Shown: positions 2,450 to 14,966 of the stretch, one piece after another
Position numbering within the stretch: the stretch's first letter is position 1
Layout: each line of letters opens with the position of its first letter
IMG/VR virus record: IMGVR_UViG_3300001715_000010
Coordinates: 1-24,386 of that record
Direction: 5' to 3' (one strand)
From: a virus
DNA length: 24,386 nucleotides
Notes under the pieces: generated by a model
Told to the model about the DNA's origin: nothing
The model's database searches: none
Seen by the model: the letters and a program-made list of their open reading frames with translations, nothing else
Position numbers and translations under genes: made by a program

Positions 2450-3454
2450 ATGTCAGTCATCATCGCCTCACCCGATACCCTGCGCACCCAGGTCGAGGCC
2501 GCCACCGGCGGCAAGGTCACCGTGCTCTACGACGACAAGGGCTTTCCCAGCTTGATGCACGTCGTTCCCAAGTTCCGCTATGAGGATCTCGGCCTCGACG
2601 CTACCTTCGGCACCGGTGTGGCCACTGCCTTCATAAAAGGCAATACCGAGCTGCCCGAGATCTTCATCGGCCAGTACCAGGCTCAGGTATATGAAGGTCG
2701 CGCGGTCAGCATGCCCGGCCGCGACCCGCGCACCTCTATCAACTATGACGACGCCCGCGACGCCTGCACCGCCAAGGGCGCCGGCTGGCACTTGATGACC
2801 ATGCACGAATGGGCGGCCGTCGCGCTGTGGTGCCACGCCAGCGGCTTCATCCCGCGCGGCAATACCGATTACGGCCGCGCCCACGACGCCCATCACGAAT
2901 TGGGCCGCCGCCAGGATGGTGGTACCGCCGGCAACGGCGAAGGCGCGGCACGCATCCTCACTGGATCCGGGCCGGCCTCCTGGCGCCACGACAACGCCAT
3001 GGGCGGCATCGCCGACCTGGTCGGCAACGTCTGGGAATGGCAGCACGGCTTCAAGCTCGTCGATGGACAGATCCATCTGATCGAGGACAACAGCTTCGAT
3101 CTGCCGGAAGCCGACTGGACCGCGCTGAGCCATTACCTCAGCAATGAAGATGGCGCGCCCACGCTGAAGAACAGCGACCCGGTGGTCGAAGACAGCAGCA
3201 TTAGCGTCGATTGGAATGCTACGGCCAAGGCGGCCGGGTATAGCGAGTCCGAGCTGCTGCAGCGGCTGCTGGTCAGCCCGGCTGACGTGGCCATGCAGGG
3301 CCGTCTATACGTCAACACCGCCGGCGAGCGGATCCCGTATCGCGGCGGCTACTGGAACAACGCTGGCGGTGCCGGCCTGGCTGCTCTGCTTCTGTACAAC
3401 TCGCGTTCGGACACGAACAGCGGTCGGGGGTTCCGCCCCGCTTTTGCACTCTGA
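2450..3454 (+). CDS. DGR target: variable receptor-binding protein with FGE/C-type-lectin fold
   Basis: A 334-residue protein. Residues about 75-334 carry the hallmarks of the formylglycine-generating-enzyme/sulfatase-modifying fold (a C-type lectin variant) used by many DGR targets: a 'YDDARDAC' segment, 'GWHLMT..EW' (112-121), and 'DLVGNVWEWQ' (189-198). The C-terminus (RGG-x-WNN ... NSGRGFRPAF) is the ligand-binding loop and is encoded by the variable repeat at 3327-3446. Residues that differ from the template are Y301, G307, L314, Y316, D321 and G325; the template encodes Asn at all six. FGE catalytic activity is not expected; this fold serves here as a scaffold for variable binding. By position it is displayed on the tail fibre or tip and binds the host receptor. 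ATG follows AAGGAG. Confidence 0.93.
   Translation: MSVIIASPDTLRTQVEAATGGKVTVLYDDKGFPSLMHVVPKFRYEDLGLDATFGTGVATAFIKGNTELPEIFIGQYQAQVYEGRAVSMPGRDPRTSINYDDARDACTAKGAGWHLMTMHEWAAVALWCHASGFIPRGNTDYGRAHDAHHELGRRQDGGTAGNGEGAARILTGSGPASWRHDNAMGGIADLVGNVWEWQHGFKLVDGQIHLIEDNSFDLPEADWTALSHYLSNEDGAPTLKNSDPVVEDSSISVDWNATAKAAGYSESELLQRLLVSPADVAMQGRLYVNTAGERIPYRGGYWNNAGGAGLAALLLYNSRSDTNSGRGFRPAFAL
3327..3446 (+). repeat. DGR variable repeat (VR)
   Basis: This 120-bp segment at the 3' end of the target gene aligns without gaps to the template repeat 856 bases downstream. Ten positions differ. Nine are at template adenines: A to T at 4206, 4246 and 4251; A to G at 4224, 4225, 4266, 4278 and 4279; A to C at 4245. 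The tenth is T3443 against template C4299, inside the GC-rich 3' end that acts as the initiation-of-mutagenic-homing (IMH) segment in known DGRs (about 3425-3446). The substitutions hit six codons, all Asn codons in the template. Confidence 0.97.
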
Positions 3455-3476
3455 AATCTGACACCTGACCTCTGGA

Positions 3477-3498
3477 AGACCCCGCGATAGCGGGGTCT
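3477..3498 (+). other. Hairpin/cruciform downstream of VR
   Basis: A perfect 9-bp inverted repeat (AGACCCCGC / GCGGGGTCT) closes a GATA tetraloop and lies 30 bases after the VR end and 22 bases after the target gene stop. Bordetella phage and other DGRs have a short GC-rich stem with a 4-base loop just after the IMH segment that helps direct homing to the VR. Stem length and loop fit that class. No T-run follows, so it is unlikely to be an efficient intrinsic terminator. Confidence 0.8.
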
Positions 3499-3513
3499 AT
3501 AGGAAATGACGCC

Positions 3514-3816
3514 ATGAACCGAACGCATCTCGAGCACGCCCTGATCGCACTGGGCGTGCAGCTGATTCTCTGGCCGATGCTGGGGATCGTCGCCACCGGC
3601 ATCGTCGCCTGCGCCGTGTTTTTCGGCCGCGAGGTCGCCCAGCACGAGTACAAGCTCGGCATGGATCGCGGCTGGGTCTGGGGCGAAACACTGCCAGTCA
3701 AATGGTGGGAGGGAATCGCGAAAGGCTGGTCGCGGGATTCCGTCCTCGATGTCGTCACCCCGGCGCTGCTCTGCGCACTACTGGCCGTGGTGATCACGGC
3801 GCTGGGCGTAGCCTGA
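3514..3816 (+). CDS. Small two-helix membrane protein inside the DGR cassette
   Basis: A 100-residue protein with two hydrophobic segments, about residues 9-37 and 79-98. The loop between them holds a 'GREVAQHEYKLG' motif and several Trp residues. Similar small membrane proteins occur in tail/lysis regions of phages in my recollection, but I cannot name a family. It begins 15 bases after the VR hairpin with an AGGAAA site, and its TGA overlaps the ATG of the Avd gene by one base, so the two are translationally coupled. A holin-like role or a DGR accessory role are both possible and both unproven. Confidence 0.7.
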   Translation: MNRTHLEHALIALGVQLILWPMLGIVATGIVACAVFFGREVAQHEYKLGMDRGWVWGETLPVKWWEGIAKGWSRDSVLDVVTPALLCALLAVVITALGVA

Positions 3817-4157
3817 TGGCGGACGATTTGAAGATCCGTCGCCGTACCGAAGACATGATCGCCTATGCCTACGTGGCGGTGCGCCAGTTTCCCAAGGCCG
3901 AGCGACACGTGCTGAGCGCCGAAGTGCGCGAGAGCTGCTGGCGTCTGCTGCGCCTGATCGTGGTGTGCAACAAGCGTTACCACAAAAAGACCACGCTGCA
4001 GGATCTCGACGCCGAACTCGACCTGCTGCGCTCCCTGGTTCGCATGTCGCATGAACTGGGCTTTCTCGCCTTCGCCAAGTACGAAACCTGGTCACGCCAA
4101 ATCGACGAGATCGGACGCATGACCGGCGGCTGGATCAAGGCCATGAGCATGAAGTGA
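3816..4157 (+). CDS. avd: DGR accessory protein, Avd family
   Basis: A 113-residue, basic, all-helical protein, matching the size and position of the accessory variability determinant of DGRs. In the Bordetella phage, Avd forms a pentameric barrel of four-helix bundles that binds the reverse transcriptase and the template RNA. The visible signature is an N-terminal helix with a 'R.TEDMIAYAY' segment, the 'PKAERHVLSAEVRES' segment, and a 'LDLLRSLVRMSHELGFL' helix, as in bAvd proteins. The frame is open upstream of 3816, but the ATG at 3816 gives the family's normal N-terminus and overlaps the upstream stop. The template repeat begins 26 bases after its stop, which is the usual order avd-TR-RT. 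Confidence 0.92.
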   Translation: MADDLKIRRRTEDMIAYAYVAVRQFPKAERHVLSAEVRESCWRLLRLIVVCNKRYHKKTTLQDLDAELDLLRSLVRMSHELGFLAFAKYETWSRQIDEIGRMTGGWIKAMSMK

Positions 4158-4182
4158 CACGTAGTAGGGGCTGGGAGTTGAA

Positions 4183-4302
4183 AGCGGATCCCGTATCGCG
4201 GCGGCAACTGGAACAACGCTGGCAATGCCGGCCTGGCTGCTCTGAATCTGAACAACTCGCGTTCGAACACGAACAGCAATCGGGGGTTCCGCCCCGCTCT
4301 TG
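4183..4302 (+). repeat. DGR template repeat (TR)
   Basis: A 120-bp non-coding copy of the VR. It holds 25 adenines, 20 of them in ten Asn codons (AAC/AAT) when read in the target frame, a composition that lets adenine mutagenesis reach many amino acids while avoiding stop codons. It is expected to be transcribed into the template RNA that the reverse transcriptase copies with errors at adenines. The template-encoded residues at the six changed codons are all Asn. Both directions of transfer are possible in principle, but the adenine pattern fixes this copy as the donor. Confidence 0.97.
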
Positions 4303-4458
4303 AGATGAACCGGCCCGAAGCCGGGCGCTTACGGGCGCTCGGACAGCGCCATTCAAAAGGACTGCCAGCCCTCGGCACTTGCCGAAAAACGCCATCGGCG
4401 CGGTGATGAGTATTTAGGAAAGTCGCCGCGCCCACTCCTACCGACGTCAGGGATTCCG
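4303..4458 (+). ncRNA. TR-RT spacer, probable structured part of the DGR template RNA
   Basis: These 156 bases between the template and the reverse transcriptase start hold no gene. Self-complementary blocks are seen, such as GGCGCT / AGCGCC around 4334-4350 and a GGCCCG-AAG-CCGGGC-like stem around 4312-4325. In the Bordetella DGR the spacer RNA directly 3' of the template primes cDNA synthesis and binds Avd and the polymerase. The same role here is inference from position and fold potential. Confidence 0.55.
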
Positions 4459-5524
4459 ATGAAGCGGCATTTTGACCTGTTCGAGCAATTCACTACCTTC
4501 GAATCACTCCACCGCGCTCACCTGCTTGCACGCCGCGGCAAGCGCGACCGCGCGGAGGTACTGCGTTTCACCCAGCACCTGGAAGAAAACCTGCTCATGC
4601 TGCAGCGCGAGCTGCTCGAAGGCACCTATCGCACCGGCGACTATCGCTATTTCAAGGTCTACGAGCCCAAGGAGCGCGTTGTCGCGTCGCTGCCGTATCG
4701 TGACCGCGTGGTGCAGCACGCCCTGATCAGCGCCGTCGAGCCGCTGTTCGAGCGTACCTTCCACCATGACAGCTACGCCTGCCGCCCCGGCAAGGGCATG
4801 CACGCCGGCGCCGACCGCGCCCAGCAGTTTCTGCGCCAGGTCGAGCGCAGCCACGGCCAGGTGTACGTGCTCAAGGCGGACATCAGCAAGTATTTCAATT
4901 CCATCGATCACGGCGTGCTCAAACGCCTGTTGCGCCGGCGGATCGGCTGCGAGCGAACGCTCGCCGTGCTCGAAGGGATCATCGACTCGAACGCCGTTAT
5001 TGGCGACCTGACCCCCAAGGGCCTGCCGATCGGCAACCTGACCAGCCAGCTCGCCGCCAATATCTACCTGCACGAGCTCGACGACTTCGTGAAGCACGGC
5101 CTGCGCGAACGCCGCTACCTGCGCTACATGGACGATTTCTGTGTCGTTCATCACGACAAGGCCCAGCTGCACCGGCTGCGCCATGACGTCGAGGCCTTTC
5201 TGTGGGATCAGCTGCGCCTGACCACCAACCACAAGACCCAGGTCTTCCCGATTAGCAGCCACCGGGGGGCGCGGCCTCGACTTCCTCGGCTACAAGATCT
5301 GGCCGCACCGCCGCCGGGTCCGCAAAGACTGCGTGCTGCGCATGCGCAAAAAGATGAAGCGCCTGCAGCGCCACTACGCCGAGGGTCGCATCGAGCTCGA
5401 CGAGGTGCGCCCCGTCGTCGCCAGCTGGGTCGGCCACGTCTCACACGCCGACAGCGAGCGCCTGCGCGAAGAGTTGCTCAGCCGGTATAGGTTCAGTCGC
5501 GTGGGAGGCGCGGGAGACCAATAG
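4459..5524 (+). CDS. DGR reverse transcriptase, interrupted by a +1 frameshift in a G6 run
   Basis: DGR-class reverse transcriptase. Visible motifs: catalytic Asp in KADISKYF (D141), the DGR-diagnostic IGNLTSQ (191-197, where group II intron enzymes have a QG-type motif), and the active-site YMDD (223-226). The ATG at 4459 has a CAGGGA site. As written, the frame continues past residue 270 into unrelated Arg/Pro/Ala-rich sequence and stops at 5490. The true C-terminus lies in the +1 frame: a GLDFLGYKIW thumb motif (5273-5302), then a basic helix, and 'SWVGHVSHADS' up to the stop at 5522-5524. Removing one G from the run at 5264-5269 restores a 354-residue protein, a normal length for the family. 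Whether the shift is real, programmed, or a sequencing error cannot be told here. Confidence 0.92.
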
Positions 5525-5536
5525 ACAGCGCTCGCC

Positions 5537-5563
5537 AAAGCCCGCCAAGCGCGGGCTTTTCTG
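5537..5563 (+). terminator. Rho-independent terminator after the DGR
   Basis: AAAGCCCGC pairs with GCGGGCTTT around a 5-base loop, followed by T residues (to 5560) and a pyrimidine-rich tract. It lies 13 bases after the reverse transcriptase stop and would end the fibre-DGR transcript before the sheath operon. Confidence 0.85.
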
Positions 5564-5568
5564 TCTCT

Positions 5569-5595
5569 GCGTTGTAGATCGAGAATCTACAACGC
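5569..5595. promoter_or_regulatory. 27-bp dyad upstream of the sheath operon, candidate Ogr-type activator site
   Basis: A perfect 11-bp inverted repeat (GCGTTGTAGAT / ATCTACAACGC) around a 5-base centre. It contains TGT and ACA half sites 13 bases apart. P2 late promoters carry a TGT/ACA dyad bound by the Ogr/Delta zinc-finger activator upstream of the start site, and the F operon promoter lies exactly in front of the sheath gene. An Ogr-like gene is present at 17189. A hairpin role is the alternative. Confidence 0.5.
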
Positions 5596-5681: not shown

Positions 5682-6854
5682 ATGGCGACCGATTACAACC
5701 ACGGCGTTCGCGTCGTCGAAATCAACGAAGGCACGCGGACCATCCGCGTCGTCTCGACTGCCGTCATCGGCTTGGTCGCGACTGCCGCCGATGCCGACGA
5801 GGCAACCTTTCCGCTCAATACCCCGGTGCTGATCTCGAACGGCACCGCCGCACTGGGTAAAGCCGGCACGTCTGGCACGCTAGCCCGCTCGCTCGATGCG
5901 ATCTTCGATCAGACAACCCCAGTCATGGTCGTGGTGCGTGTCGCCGAAGGCGAGACGGCCGACGAGACCAAGGCCAACGTCATCGGCGGCGTCGATGAGA
6001 ATGGTCGAAAGACCGGCATCCAAGCGCTGCTCGCCGCCCAAGCGCGGTTCGGCGTCAAACCGCGCATTCTCGGCGCGCCCGAGCTCGACGACGAAGACGT
6101 CGGCGCCGAGCTGATCAGCGTGGCGCAGAAGCTACGCGCCTTCGCCTACCTCTCCGCCTACGAGTGCAAGAACGTCGAAGAAGCGGTGATGTATCGCCAG
6201 ACCTACGGCGCCCGCGAAGCGATGGTGATCTGGCCGGAATTCACCGGATTCGATACCGCATCCGAAACCACGCGCAACCTCTCCGCCGTCGCCCGCGCGA
6301 TGGGCCTGCGCGCGAAAATTGACGAAGAGACCGGCTGGCACAAGACCCTTTCCAATGTCGCCGTCAACGGCGTGACGGGTATCAGCGCGGACGTCTACTG
6401 GGATCTCCAGGATCCGGACACCGATGCCGGCGTACTCAACGCCGCCGACGTCACCACGTTGATCAACCGCGACGGCTTCCGCTTCTGGGGCTCACGTACC
6501 TGCACCGATGATCCGCTGTTCGCGTTCGAGTCATACACCCGCACCGCGCAGGTGCTCGCTGACACGATGGCAGAGGCGCATCTCTGGGCGGTCGACAAGC
6601 CCATGAGCCCCAGCCTCGCGCGGGACATCATCGAAGGCATCAACCGCAAGTTCCGCGAACTGACGCGCCAGGGTTACCTCCTCGGTGGCAATGCCTGGTT
6701 CGACGCCGAAGTGAACACGGTCGACGTTCTCAAGAGCGGCAAGCTCTACATCGACTACGACTACACCCCGGTTCCCCCGCTCGAAAACCTCATGCTGCAG
6801 CAACGCATCGTCGATCAGTACCTGGTCGATTTCGCGTCGCGCGTCGCCGCCTGA
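5682..6854 (+). CDS. FI: Contractile tail sheath protein (P2 gpFI-like)
   Basis: A 390-residue sheath protein, close to the 396 residues of P2 FI. The N-terminus ([11 protein letters not shown], then '[11 protein letters not shown]' and 'TPVLISN') is the classic start of Myoviridae sheath subunits. The C-terminus has the '[21 protein letters not shown]' type segment used in the P2 subgroup to join adjacent subunits. It polymerises around the tail tube and contracts on host binding. The ATG follows a CAGGAG site. First gene of the F operon: sheath, tube, chaperones, tape measure, U, D. Confidence 0.96.
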
Positions 6855-12391: not shown

Positions 12392-12574
12392 GTGGATAGC
12401 AGAGCGCTGATCAAGGAACTGAAGCGGGATGGTTGGGAGCTGGTCAGAGTCAACGGCAGCCATCACCACTTCAGACATCCCGCCAAACCCGGCACCGTCA
12501 CGGTGCCTCATCCCAAAAAGGATCTGAAAACGGGTTTGGTGCGGGGAATCAGAAAAAGCGCCGGTCTCCTTTGA
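12392..12574 (+). CDS. hicA: HicA mRNA interferase toxin
   Basis: A 60-residue HicA (type II toxin, dsRBD-like fold). It shows the family core: 'LIKELKRDGWELVRVNGSHHHF', with the catalytic His in GSHHHF, then 'VTVPHPKKDL' and 'GLVRGIRKSAGLL'. It cleaves translated mRNA and stalls growth until neutralised by HicB. The GTG at 12392 gives the usual short N-terminus and follows AAGGGG; an AGGAGG overlaps the start itself. Length and key residues are intact. The pair has its own promoter, so it is expressed in the lysogen and is independent of the late operon. Confidence 0.94.
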   Translation: MDSRALIKELKRDGWELVRVNGSHHHFRHPAKPGTVTVPHPKKDLKTGLVRGIRKSAGLL

Positions 12575-12612
12575 GGCCGGAACCTGCTGCCCCCGACAGG
12601 AGGAATCGAACC

Positions 12613-13032
12613 ATGTTATTTCCCATTGCGATCGAACGCGGCGATGAAGACCACGCCTACGGCGTCATCGTTCCCGATCTGCCTGGATGCTTCTCGGCTG
12701 GCGATACATTCGAGGAAGCGCTGGCCAACGTCCACGAAGCTATCGAGGGTTGGCTCGAGGTCCAGGTCGAGCATGACGAACCGATCCCCGAGGCCAAGAC
12801 CATCGAGCATCACGTCGATAAACCGGACTTCGAAGGTTGGATCTGGGCGGTCGTCGATATCGACTTGACGCCATATCTCGGCAAAAGCCATAAAATCAAT
12901 GTCACCCTGCCGGATTTGCTGGTGAAACAGATCGACGACTACGTGGCCGGCAATCCGAGCGACAAGACTCGCTCCGGCTTCCTCTCGCGTGTTGCCATGC
13001 AAGAGCTCGCTCGGACGCGGAAGAGCGCTTGA
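12613..13032 (+). CDS. hicB: HicB antitoxin
   Basis: A 139-residue HicB. Residues about 1-65 are the partial RNase H-fold HicB domain ('YGVIVPDLPGCFSAGDTFEEAL..VHEAIE'), which inhibits HicA; residues about 93-138 are a ribbon-helix-helix DNA-binding domain ('KINVTLPDLLVKQIDDYV', 'RSGFLSRVAMQEL') for autorepression. The frame is open far upstream, but the ATG at 12613 has an AGGAGGAA site and gives the family N-terminus. It lies 38 bases after hicA. Confidence 0.94.
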   Translation: MLFPIAIERGDEDHAYGVIVPDLPGCFSAGDTFEEALANVHEAIEGWLEVQVEHDEPIPEAKTIEHHVDKPDFEGWIWAVVDIDLTPYLGKSHKINVTLPDLLVKQIDDYVAGNPSDKTRSGFLSRVAMQELARTRKSA

Positions 13033-13844: not shown

Positions 13845-14136
13845 GATTGTCGCCCTCTTCTTCCAGGAATGCCAACACCTCCATATCACGGAAGTAACGT
13901 AGATAGCCGCAGTGCAGGCACGCCTGCACGAACTGGCCGTACCCAAGGCGAGGATTGCTCGCCAATACCTGGTTGATCAGGATCGCCGGGGCGTTGCCAT
14001 CGCTGTCACGCTCATAGTCGTTGACAGCAATACTCATCGAATCGACGGTCGAGCAGGCGGGGCAGTCGCCGCCCACGCCCTGGCTATCGAGAAAGCGCTT
14101 GAGATCTGCCCCCGTGACGAGGCGGTTATCGCTCAT
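13834..14136 (-). CDS. Zinc-ribbon-like phage protein, function unknown
   Basis: A 100-residue protein from the ATG at 14136. Two Cys pairs, CPAC (about residue 25) and CLHC (about residue 74), separated by about 48 residues, suggest a zinc ribbon. Between them is a predicted beta strand and helix ('APAILINQVLASNP'). The C-terminus is acidic. The start overlaps the stop of the upstream membrane/BRCT gene by 4 bases. I do not recognise a characterised family. The frame continues upstream of 14136 but that part overlaps another gene and looks non-coding. Confidence 0.8.
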   Translation of the reverse strand: MSDNRLVTGADLKRFLDSQGVGGDCPACSTVDSMSIAVNDYERDSDGNAPAILINQVLASNPRLGYGQFVQACLHCGYLRYFRDMEVLAFLEEEGDNHAE

Positions 14137-14966
14137 GCCGGGAGCTCTCCGGTCGCCAGCATCGCCTGAAATTCGTCTTCGGTCAGAATGGTGCAGCCTT
14201 GCGCCCTCGCCTGGGAGAGCTTTGTTGCCCCGGCTCTTGGCCCGGCGCAAACGAAGGTGAGCTTCTTGGTGACCGTCTTTCTCACCAACAGGCCATGATC
14301 CTCGGCATCGGATTCCAAATCATCACGCTCCTCTGAAGAGAAACCGGTGAAAAGGATCTCCATGGCTCGTTCAGAAGACTTCGGGGCTTTCGCGGTTCTC
14401 TCTTCTGTCGGTTTAGCTGGGCCGAGTAATTCCTCTCCCAGTAGAAACTCAACAATTCTGTCACGCCGGAAAGTGCGTATATCTTCGACCTCATGGCAAA
14501 AGCCCTCGATATATACGCCATCTTCCATCCAGTCGGAGACTTCCCGAGTGGTGACATTGCCCCGAGTGTCTCGATAAGTAAAAATCAGTCGTTCTTCAAG
14601 TTCTGCCGAATCCAGCCGGTCACGCTCTTCAATTACCTCGCTGATAATCCCTGTCAGGGCCGATTTAATCCGCGTTACTCGAGCCTTCCGACTGGCTTTG
14701 AGTGACACATAAAGTGCAATGCCAAGCGGCCCAACCAGCAGCATTCCGGCGATGATGCCGGTAGCACCCAGCGACTCTGTCTCGCCAAGGGCGAAGCCCA
14801 TGCCGTCGAGCATCAGCAACAAGCCGCCAAGCGCGAACCAGCCCAATGTAAGTCCGGCTAGATGGCGTGCCCACCATGGGCGGCCATTGATCCGCATGGA
14901 TTTCGCTAGCGCGCGCCAACCGTAGATCGCGCCACCAAACGACAACAAAACAGCAACCAGGTCCAT
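14133..14966 (-). CDS. Membrane-anchored protein with WYL-like and BRCT domains
   Basis: A 277-residue protein. Three hydrophobic helices lie at about residues 2-18, 37-54 and 67-88. Next comes a small beta domain, about 125-173, with the pattern 'LIFTYRDTRGNVTTREV', 'YIEGFC' and 'RTFRRDRI', typical of WYL-like ligand-sensing domains. Last is a BRCT domain, about 203-270: 'ILFTGFSSEERDDLE', then a 'VTKKLTFVCAG' strand, 'GATKLSQARAQGCTI' and 'TEDEFQAML'. BRCT domains bind DNA ends or phosphoproteins. An AAGGGGAAGGGG tract precedes the ATG at 14966. The start overlaps the upstream XRE gene by 61 bases. It looks like a lysogenic-conversion or defence gene; that is inference. Confidence 0.82.
   Translation of the reverse strand: MDLVAVLLSFGGAIYGWRALAKSMRINGRPWWARHLAGLTLGWFALGGLLLMLDGMGFALGETESLGATGIIAGMLLVGPLGIALYVSLKASRKARVTRIKSALTGIISEVIEERDRLDSAELEERLIFTYRDTRGNVTTREVSDWMEDGVYIEGFCHEVEDIRTFRRDRIVEFLLGEELLGPAKPTEERTAKAPKSSERAMEILFTGFSSEERDDLESDAEDHGLLVRKTVTKKLTFVCAGPRAGATKLSQARAQGCTILTEDEFQAMLATGELPA

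Follow-up and report, generated by a model that had tools for sequence, protein, structure and literature searches.

The window analysed here, which is an entire virus record of 24,386 bases (IMGVR_UViG_3300001715_000010), very probably harbors a phage diversity-generating retroelement (DGR) of the VHML/BPP-1 type that worked recently and whose reverse transcriptase (RT) gene is broken at a run of six G residues (G6) in this copy. The parts of such an element lie together at the boundary between the tail-fibre genes and the sheath gene: a template repeat (TR) and a variable repeat (VR) that differ only at adenines, the accessory variability determinant Avd, an RT of the DGR class, a hairpin with a GRNA loop and a target protein of the C-type-lectin type (Table 1). 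A preliminary description of this DNA had proposed that a phage with a P2-type tail varies a tail protein of the receptor-binding type by means of a DGR, and this proposal is well supported by the TR/VR pair, the protein families, the RT tree and the hairpin. The order of parts that it gave also stands for the target gene, avd and TR, and its RT is indeed of the DGR class, but the RT is not an intact gene, being frameshifted at 5264-5269, and the RT end that it placed at 5524 spans two reading frames, which had gone unremarked.

The tail genes of the window run in the order fibre genes, 2450-5524, sheath (5682-6854), tube, gpE, tape measure, gpU and gpD, so that the position between tail-fibre genes and sheath operon is as first described. 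The P2-type FI-FII-E-T-U-D module is recognised by phrog_23, 55, 103, 28, 76 and 52, in that order, and the sheath reaches 69% identity with phages of the P2 group. Further along the window there are a gpA-type replication gene (PF05840, 261 bits) and an integrase gene (PF00589). By its tail module, its gpA-type replication protein and its integrase, the window would thus represent a P2-like temperate phage; a nucleotide comparison of the whole window with named phages returned short pieces only.

The target open reading frame (ORF), avd and the direct repeat at 3327-3446 and 4183-4302 were all confirmed. The only strong long repeats in the window are this one and a tandem repeat at its 5' end. 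The two copies of the direct repeat are 92% identical, and nine of their ten mismatches fall at adenines of the downstream copy, which is the TR. When the repeat was delimited by an adenine-tolerant extension, its bounds became 3324-3442 and 4180-4298, and all 11 mismatches within them lie at TR adenines, which make up 27 of the 119 TR bases; by our own arithmetic, the chance of such an outcome is about 0.227^11 = 8e-8. The tenth mismatch of the original pair (3443/4299, C in TR and T in VR) stands just beyond GCT, outside the repeat as extended, and is read as the probable repeat boundary, because the VR/TR pairs of the related IMG/VR loci L003, L004 and L005 diverge there as well. Six AAY (Asn) codons of the TR are altered in the VR, to Tyr, Gly, Leu, Tyr, Asp and Gly. 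A second VR elsewhere in the record was not found.

The target protein matches PF03781 above its cut-off and phrog_2889 at 411 bits, and it is homologous to PDB entry 5vf4 (E=1.2e-70) in the core as well as at the VR end. This structure is that of TaqVP, which serves as variable protein in the DGR of a Thermus aquaticus prophage (PMC6328139). Judged by this homology, the target would have a C-type-lectin fold with the VR at the 3' end of its gene. Avd is recognised by NF033474 (122.5 bits against a cut-off of 80), by the bAvd family PF22296 (112 bits) and by phrog_3206, 'Avd protein of DGR'.

DGR target hairpins have been described as having a GC-rich stem of 7-10 bp and a GRNA loop, at 4-34 bp from the VR (Guo 2011, PMC3240598), and the hairpin found 3' of the VR in the window, AGACCCCGC-GATA-GCGGGGTCT, matches this description. 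In a shuffle test of a 110-nucleotide stretch, 1 of 20,000 base shuffles produced a hairpin that had a GRNA loop and at least 8 bp in its stem. The stems differ and yet remain paired in L003, L004, L005, ZX4290, ACA1, VHML and VP58.5, the loops of these relatives being GATA or GGTA at a comparable distance from the VR. The spacer between TR and RT, aligned across eight relatives, contains the conserved blocks TCAAAAGGA and CGGC-NNNN-GCCG-AAAA; 5 of its 14 predicted pairs are changed on both sides among them, and the covariation term is weak. No Rfam match and no promoter of the sigma-70 type were found within and near the cassette, respectively.

The assignment of the RT to the DGR class holds. 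Among solved structures, its best match is 8ub7, 'Reverse transcriptase' (E=3.7e-50), the best group II RT being far behind (E=2.7e-21), and its translation contains the DGR-type motif IGNLTSQ. In the tree it joins the RTs of L003 and L004 (support 100/99), apart from the clade formed by three group II RTs (98/100); the single retron-like sequence, one row on a very long branch, cannot be placed, and no conclusion is drawn about retrons from it. Together with the match to phrog_1423, these results indicate that the RT belongs to the DGR class. It is extremely improbable that it is instead a group II intron or retron enzyme that adjoins a repeated gene end by chance: the group II RT model TIGR04416 does match it at 134 bits, but this is far under the cut-off of 300, 8ub7 outscores every group II RT, the group II rows split off in the tree, and neither adenine-specific VR/TR differences nor Avd have a place in group II introns or retrons. 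As far as sequence allows, this alternative is refuted. Isolate genomes yielded no close relatives of the RT, its matches there being only 32-47% identical.

Evidence for past activity comes from the window itself and from related elements. At the 16 non-adenine columns where the TR of the window differs from that of L003, its VR always has the base of its own TR and never that of L003, and the same is true of all 15 such columns with respect to L004. Such concerted agreement of a VR with its own TR is the pattern that retrohoming produces, and mutagenic homing would therefore have acted, and recently, in the lineage of the window. The preliminary description had proposed to look for VR variation confined to template adenines, and this comparison, which was run on relatives as no near copy of the window VR/TR was found, shows variation of this type in homologous elements. 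Of the 17 VR differences between the sister elements L092 and L093, 15 lie at TR adenines and two reflect an alteration of the TR itself. The TR is the same in the Vibrio phages VHML and VP58.5, and their VRs show 11 differences, each at an adenine; in ACA1, ACA2 and proACA1-A, which have one TR in common, 22 of the 24 variable VR columns are adenines.

A model of these elements, taken from BPP-1, would have the TR transcript copied by the RT together with Avd, and the template adenines would be miscopied in the process. The resulting complementary DNA would then replace the VR, guided by the hairpin, and the outcome would be a varied tip of the receptor-binding protein. By the same analogy, the DGR may have affected the host range of the window phage.

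A continuous RT frame, which activity needs, is not found in the window copy. The ORF at 4459-5490 is out of frame from about 5265, and the true C-terminus of the RT is read in frame +1, up to 5524. The RTs of L003 and L004 are each encoded in one continuous frame, and neither has the G run or a break at that site. Past the break, the protein is 82-84% identical to these two, and its differences from L003 and L004 at codon positions 1/2/3 number 11/6/21 and 9/8/22, respectively. As most of them fall at third codon positions, the C-terminal part would have been under selection until recently. Since the frame is broken at G6, the window copy is predicted to be inactive and its VR to be frozen; this would not hold if the extra base were an error or were missing from part of the population. 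The break counts against present activity and leaves the descent from a DGR untouched.

Several points weigh against the reading of a recently working element that is broken in this copy. The break sits in a homopolymer, where an error of sequencing or assembly is possible; the RT reads LAAN where L003 and L004 read LWAN; and near copies of the window VR and TR were not found in IMG/VR, so that no second copy of the phage displays VR variation directly. Near-identical copies of the G6 stretch were not found in IMG/VR either. The argument can be taken further, to a fully active DGR that diversifies the tail tip now, the extra base then representing a minority state or stemming from an error in sequencing or assembly. 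This reading deserves serious weight, although its probability stays somewhat short of even. The RT looks otherwise maintained, by the third-position bias and the conservation past the break, and records of such RTs can hold errors, as that of VHML (L055, NC_004456) departs from VP58.5 by about twenty small indels spread over the RT region. However, within the compared region the RT is the sole sense-strand gene of the window that is split relative to its relatives, the other multi-frame signals being antisense shadow frames. A general error-richness of the record is therefore unsupported as the cause of the break, and a real and recent break seems slightly more likely than an error in the record. 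RT loss is plausible, moreover, given that the prophage proACA1-A has an RT frameshift, described by its authors and presumed to render the RT non-functional (PMC10612066), and that two relatives, L085 and L086, are without the cassette. The break in proACA1-A was confirmed as the loss of one A from an A-run. The split RT of the deposited VHML record was not relied on as a parallel, since this record differs from VP58.5 by so many indels, and that split is probably due to sequencing errors.

That both this break and the independent one in proACA1-A lie in homopolymers, with a conserved frame downstream of the G6 run, could also be explained by a programmed or slippery site, at which a truncated and a full-length RT would be made, possibly as an on/off switch of the DGR. 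This is very improbable, because L003 and L004 are without both the G run and the break, and because the RT frame is unbroken in the remaining loci that were checked, save VHML, proACA1-A, L024 (one in-frame stop) and L033 (a tangled signal). Besides, the frames are offset by +1, and a supporting signal was neither sought nor found. The preferred reading is still that of a DGR that worked recently and whose RT is broken at G6 in this copy.

The closest known arrangement is that of VHML and VP58.5 (Vhmlvirus), which have, like the window, fibre, SUMF1/FGE target, (avd), TR, RT, FI sheath, FII and tape measure. Their targets are 44-45% identical to that of the window (44.7% for VHML ORF35) and their RTs 46-52%, and both have the GRNA-loop hairpin; VHML is listed among the DGRs with this hairpin in Guo 2011 (PMC3240598). 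Therefore, the placement between fibre and sheath, already known from these phages, is not new. Unlike them, the window has a frameshifted RT, and an additional small membrane gene separates its avd from its target; unlike VHML, it lacks a small gene after the RT. The Pseudoalteromonas phages ACA1 and ACA2 and their prophage relative proACA1-A (Peduoviridae), all of the P2 family, carry a related DGR with target, avd, TR and RT, and one of these three elements, proACA1-A, shares the frameshifted RT; they differ in their HP1-type tail order, in a cassette that does not adjoin the sheath gene and in a TR that forms a translated extension of the RT (PMC10612066). Bordetella phage BPP-1, the prototype, has the same order of target, avd, TR and RT, adenine mutagenesis, a hairpin after the VR and an RT 40% identical to that of the window, but it is a different phage with another target (Mtd). 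The Thermus aquaticus prophage DGR, whose TaqVP is the closest target with a solved structure, belongs to a distant host and was compared with the window by its target alone. Finally, the P2-like IMG/VR loci L003, L004, L083, L087 and L088 have the same locus as the window with RTs in one unbroken frame, and they differ from it in that their target and avd have no membrane gene between them.

This small membrane gene had been counted as a part of the element in the preliminary description. The gene exists at 3514-3816, but its membership was rejected: no match to it was found in the other 14 loci compared, nearest relatives included, and its best match, gp19 of the Halomonas phage phiHAP-1 (58%), directly precedes the sheath gene in an annotated stretch without avd or RT. 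It is probably a passenger at the fibre/sheath boundary, even though its stop overlaps the start of avd.

Table 1. Features of the retroelement locus in the window.
Feature	Coordinates	Strand	Remarks
DGR target gene	2450..3454	+	334-aa tail (antireceptor-type) protein with putative C-type-lectin/FGE-sulfatase-like fold
Variable repeat (VR)	3324..3442	+	3' end of target gene; 11/11 differences at TR adenines
Target-site hairpin/cruciform	3477..3498	+	9-bp stem, 34 nt beyond VR
Small hydrophobic protein gene	3514..3816	+	phrog_1443; stop overlaps avd start (ATGA)
avd, accessory variability determinant	3816..4157	+	113 aa; listed from 3702 by the ORF tool
Template repeat (TR)	4180..4298	+	non-coding here; stops ahead of the CTTGA boundary found in most relatives
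Spacer RNA, TR to RT start	4299..4458	+	two small stem-loops
RT, N-terminal part	4459..5268	+	270 aa, fingers/palm, IGNLTSQ and YMDD motifs, intact; PF00078, phrog_1423
G6 run, RT frame shift relative to intact relatives	5264..5269	+	from alignment with L003 and L004 (single-ORF RTs)
RT, C-terminal part, thumb region	5270..5524	+	out of frame with 4459; phrog_1423 positions 388-441

Other features of the window were noted in passing. Directly 3' of the RT, at 5537-5559, there is a stem-loop, AAAGCCCGC-CAAGC-GCGGGCTTT, followed by T, which was spotted by eye and which the terminator scan did not report. Ahead of the sheath gene lies a GTTGTA...TACAAC dyad (5571-5593), and a similar one occupies the same place in L003 (9057); it would be compatible with an activator site, possibly a late one, for the sheath operon. 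Its spacing is one base longer than that of the P2 Ogr consensus, and no conclusion is built on it. The sheath itself is about 112 residues shorter than those of L003, L085, L087 and L088, which hold an insert after residue ~32. At the 5' end of the contig, positions 1-792 comprise an in-frame tandem repeat of ~396 bp in a gene that resembles a 329-amino-acid ORF of L003, where there is one copy; the copies are near-identical over their first ~100 bases and then fall to chance-level identity in places, and the repeat could be a genuine duplication or else an artefact arising where the contig ends. Just beyond gpD, at 12433-13032, there is a HicB-like antitoxin domain (PF15919, 168 bits), and on the minus strand at 14133-14966 a single protein combines a WYL domain with a BRCT domain.

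In the two relatives without the cassette, L085 and L086, target and sheath genes are kept, and avd, TR and RT are missing between them. In L085 (5879-6470) their place is taken by a 99-amino-acid hydrophobic ORF and in L086 (5807-6864) by an unrelated minus-strand ORF. L086 retains a VR-like end with a GATA hairpin, and its backbone matches that of the cassette-bearing L087. The frameshifts of the window and proACA1-A, together with the absence of the cassette from L085 and L086, suggest that the DGR machinery may have been lost repeatedly while the target was kept; the cases are few, and this should be regarded as a lead. A bolder proposal, tentative and on balance unlikely, is that the DGR of these P2-like phages is a device switched off time and again, which would vary the tail tip until a good variant is fixed, after which avd, TR and RT would be lost or broken and the target kept.

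The single element is in itself ordinary. Through it, a related group of P2-like phages joins those few in which a DGR is known at the tail-fibre locus, and the cassette, found intact, broken or absent beside the same target, offers a natural series on how long a DGR is retained and on what remains after its loss.

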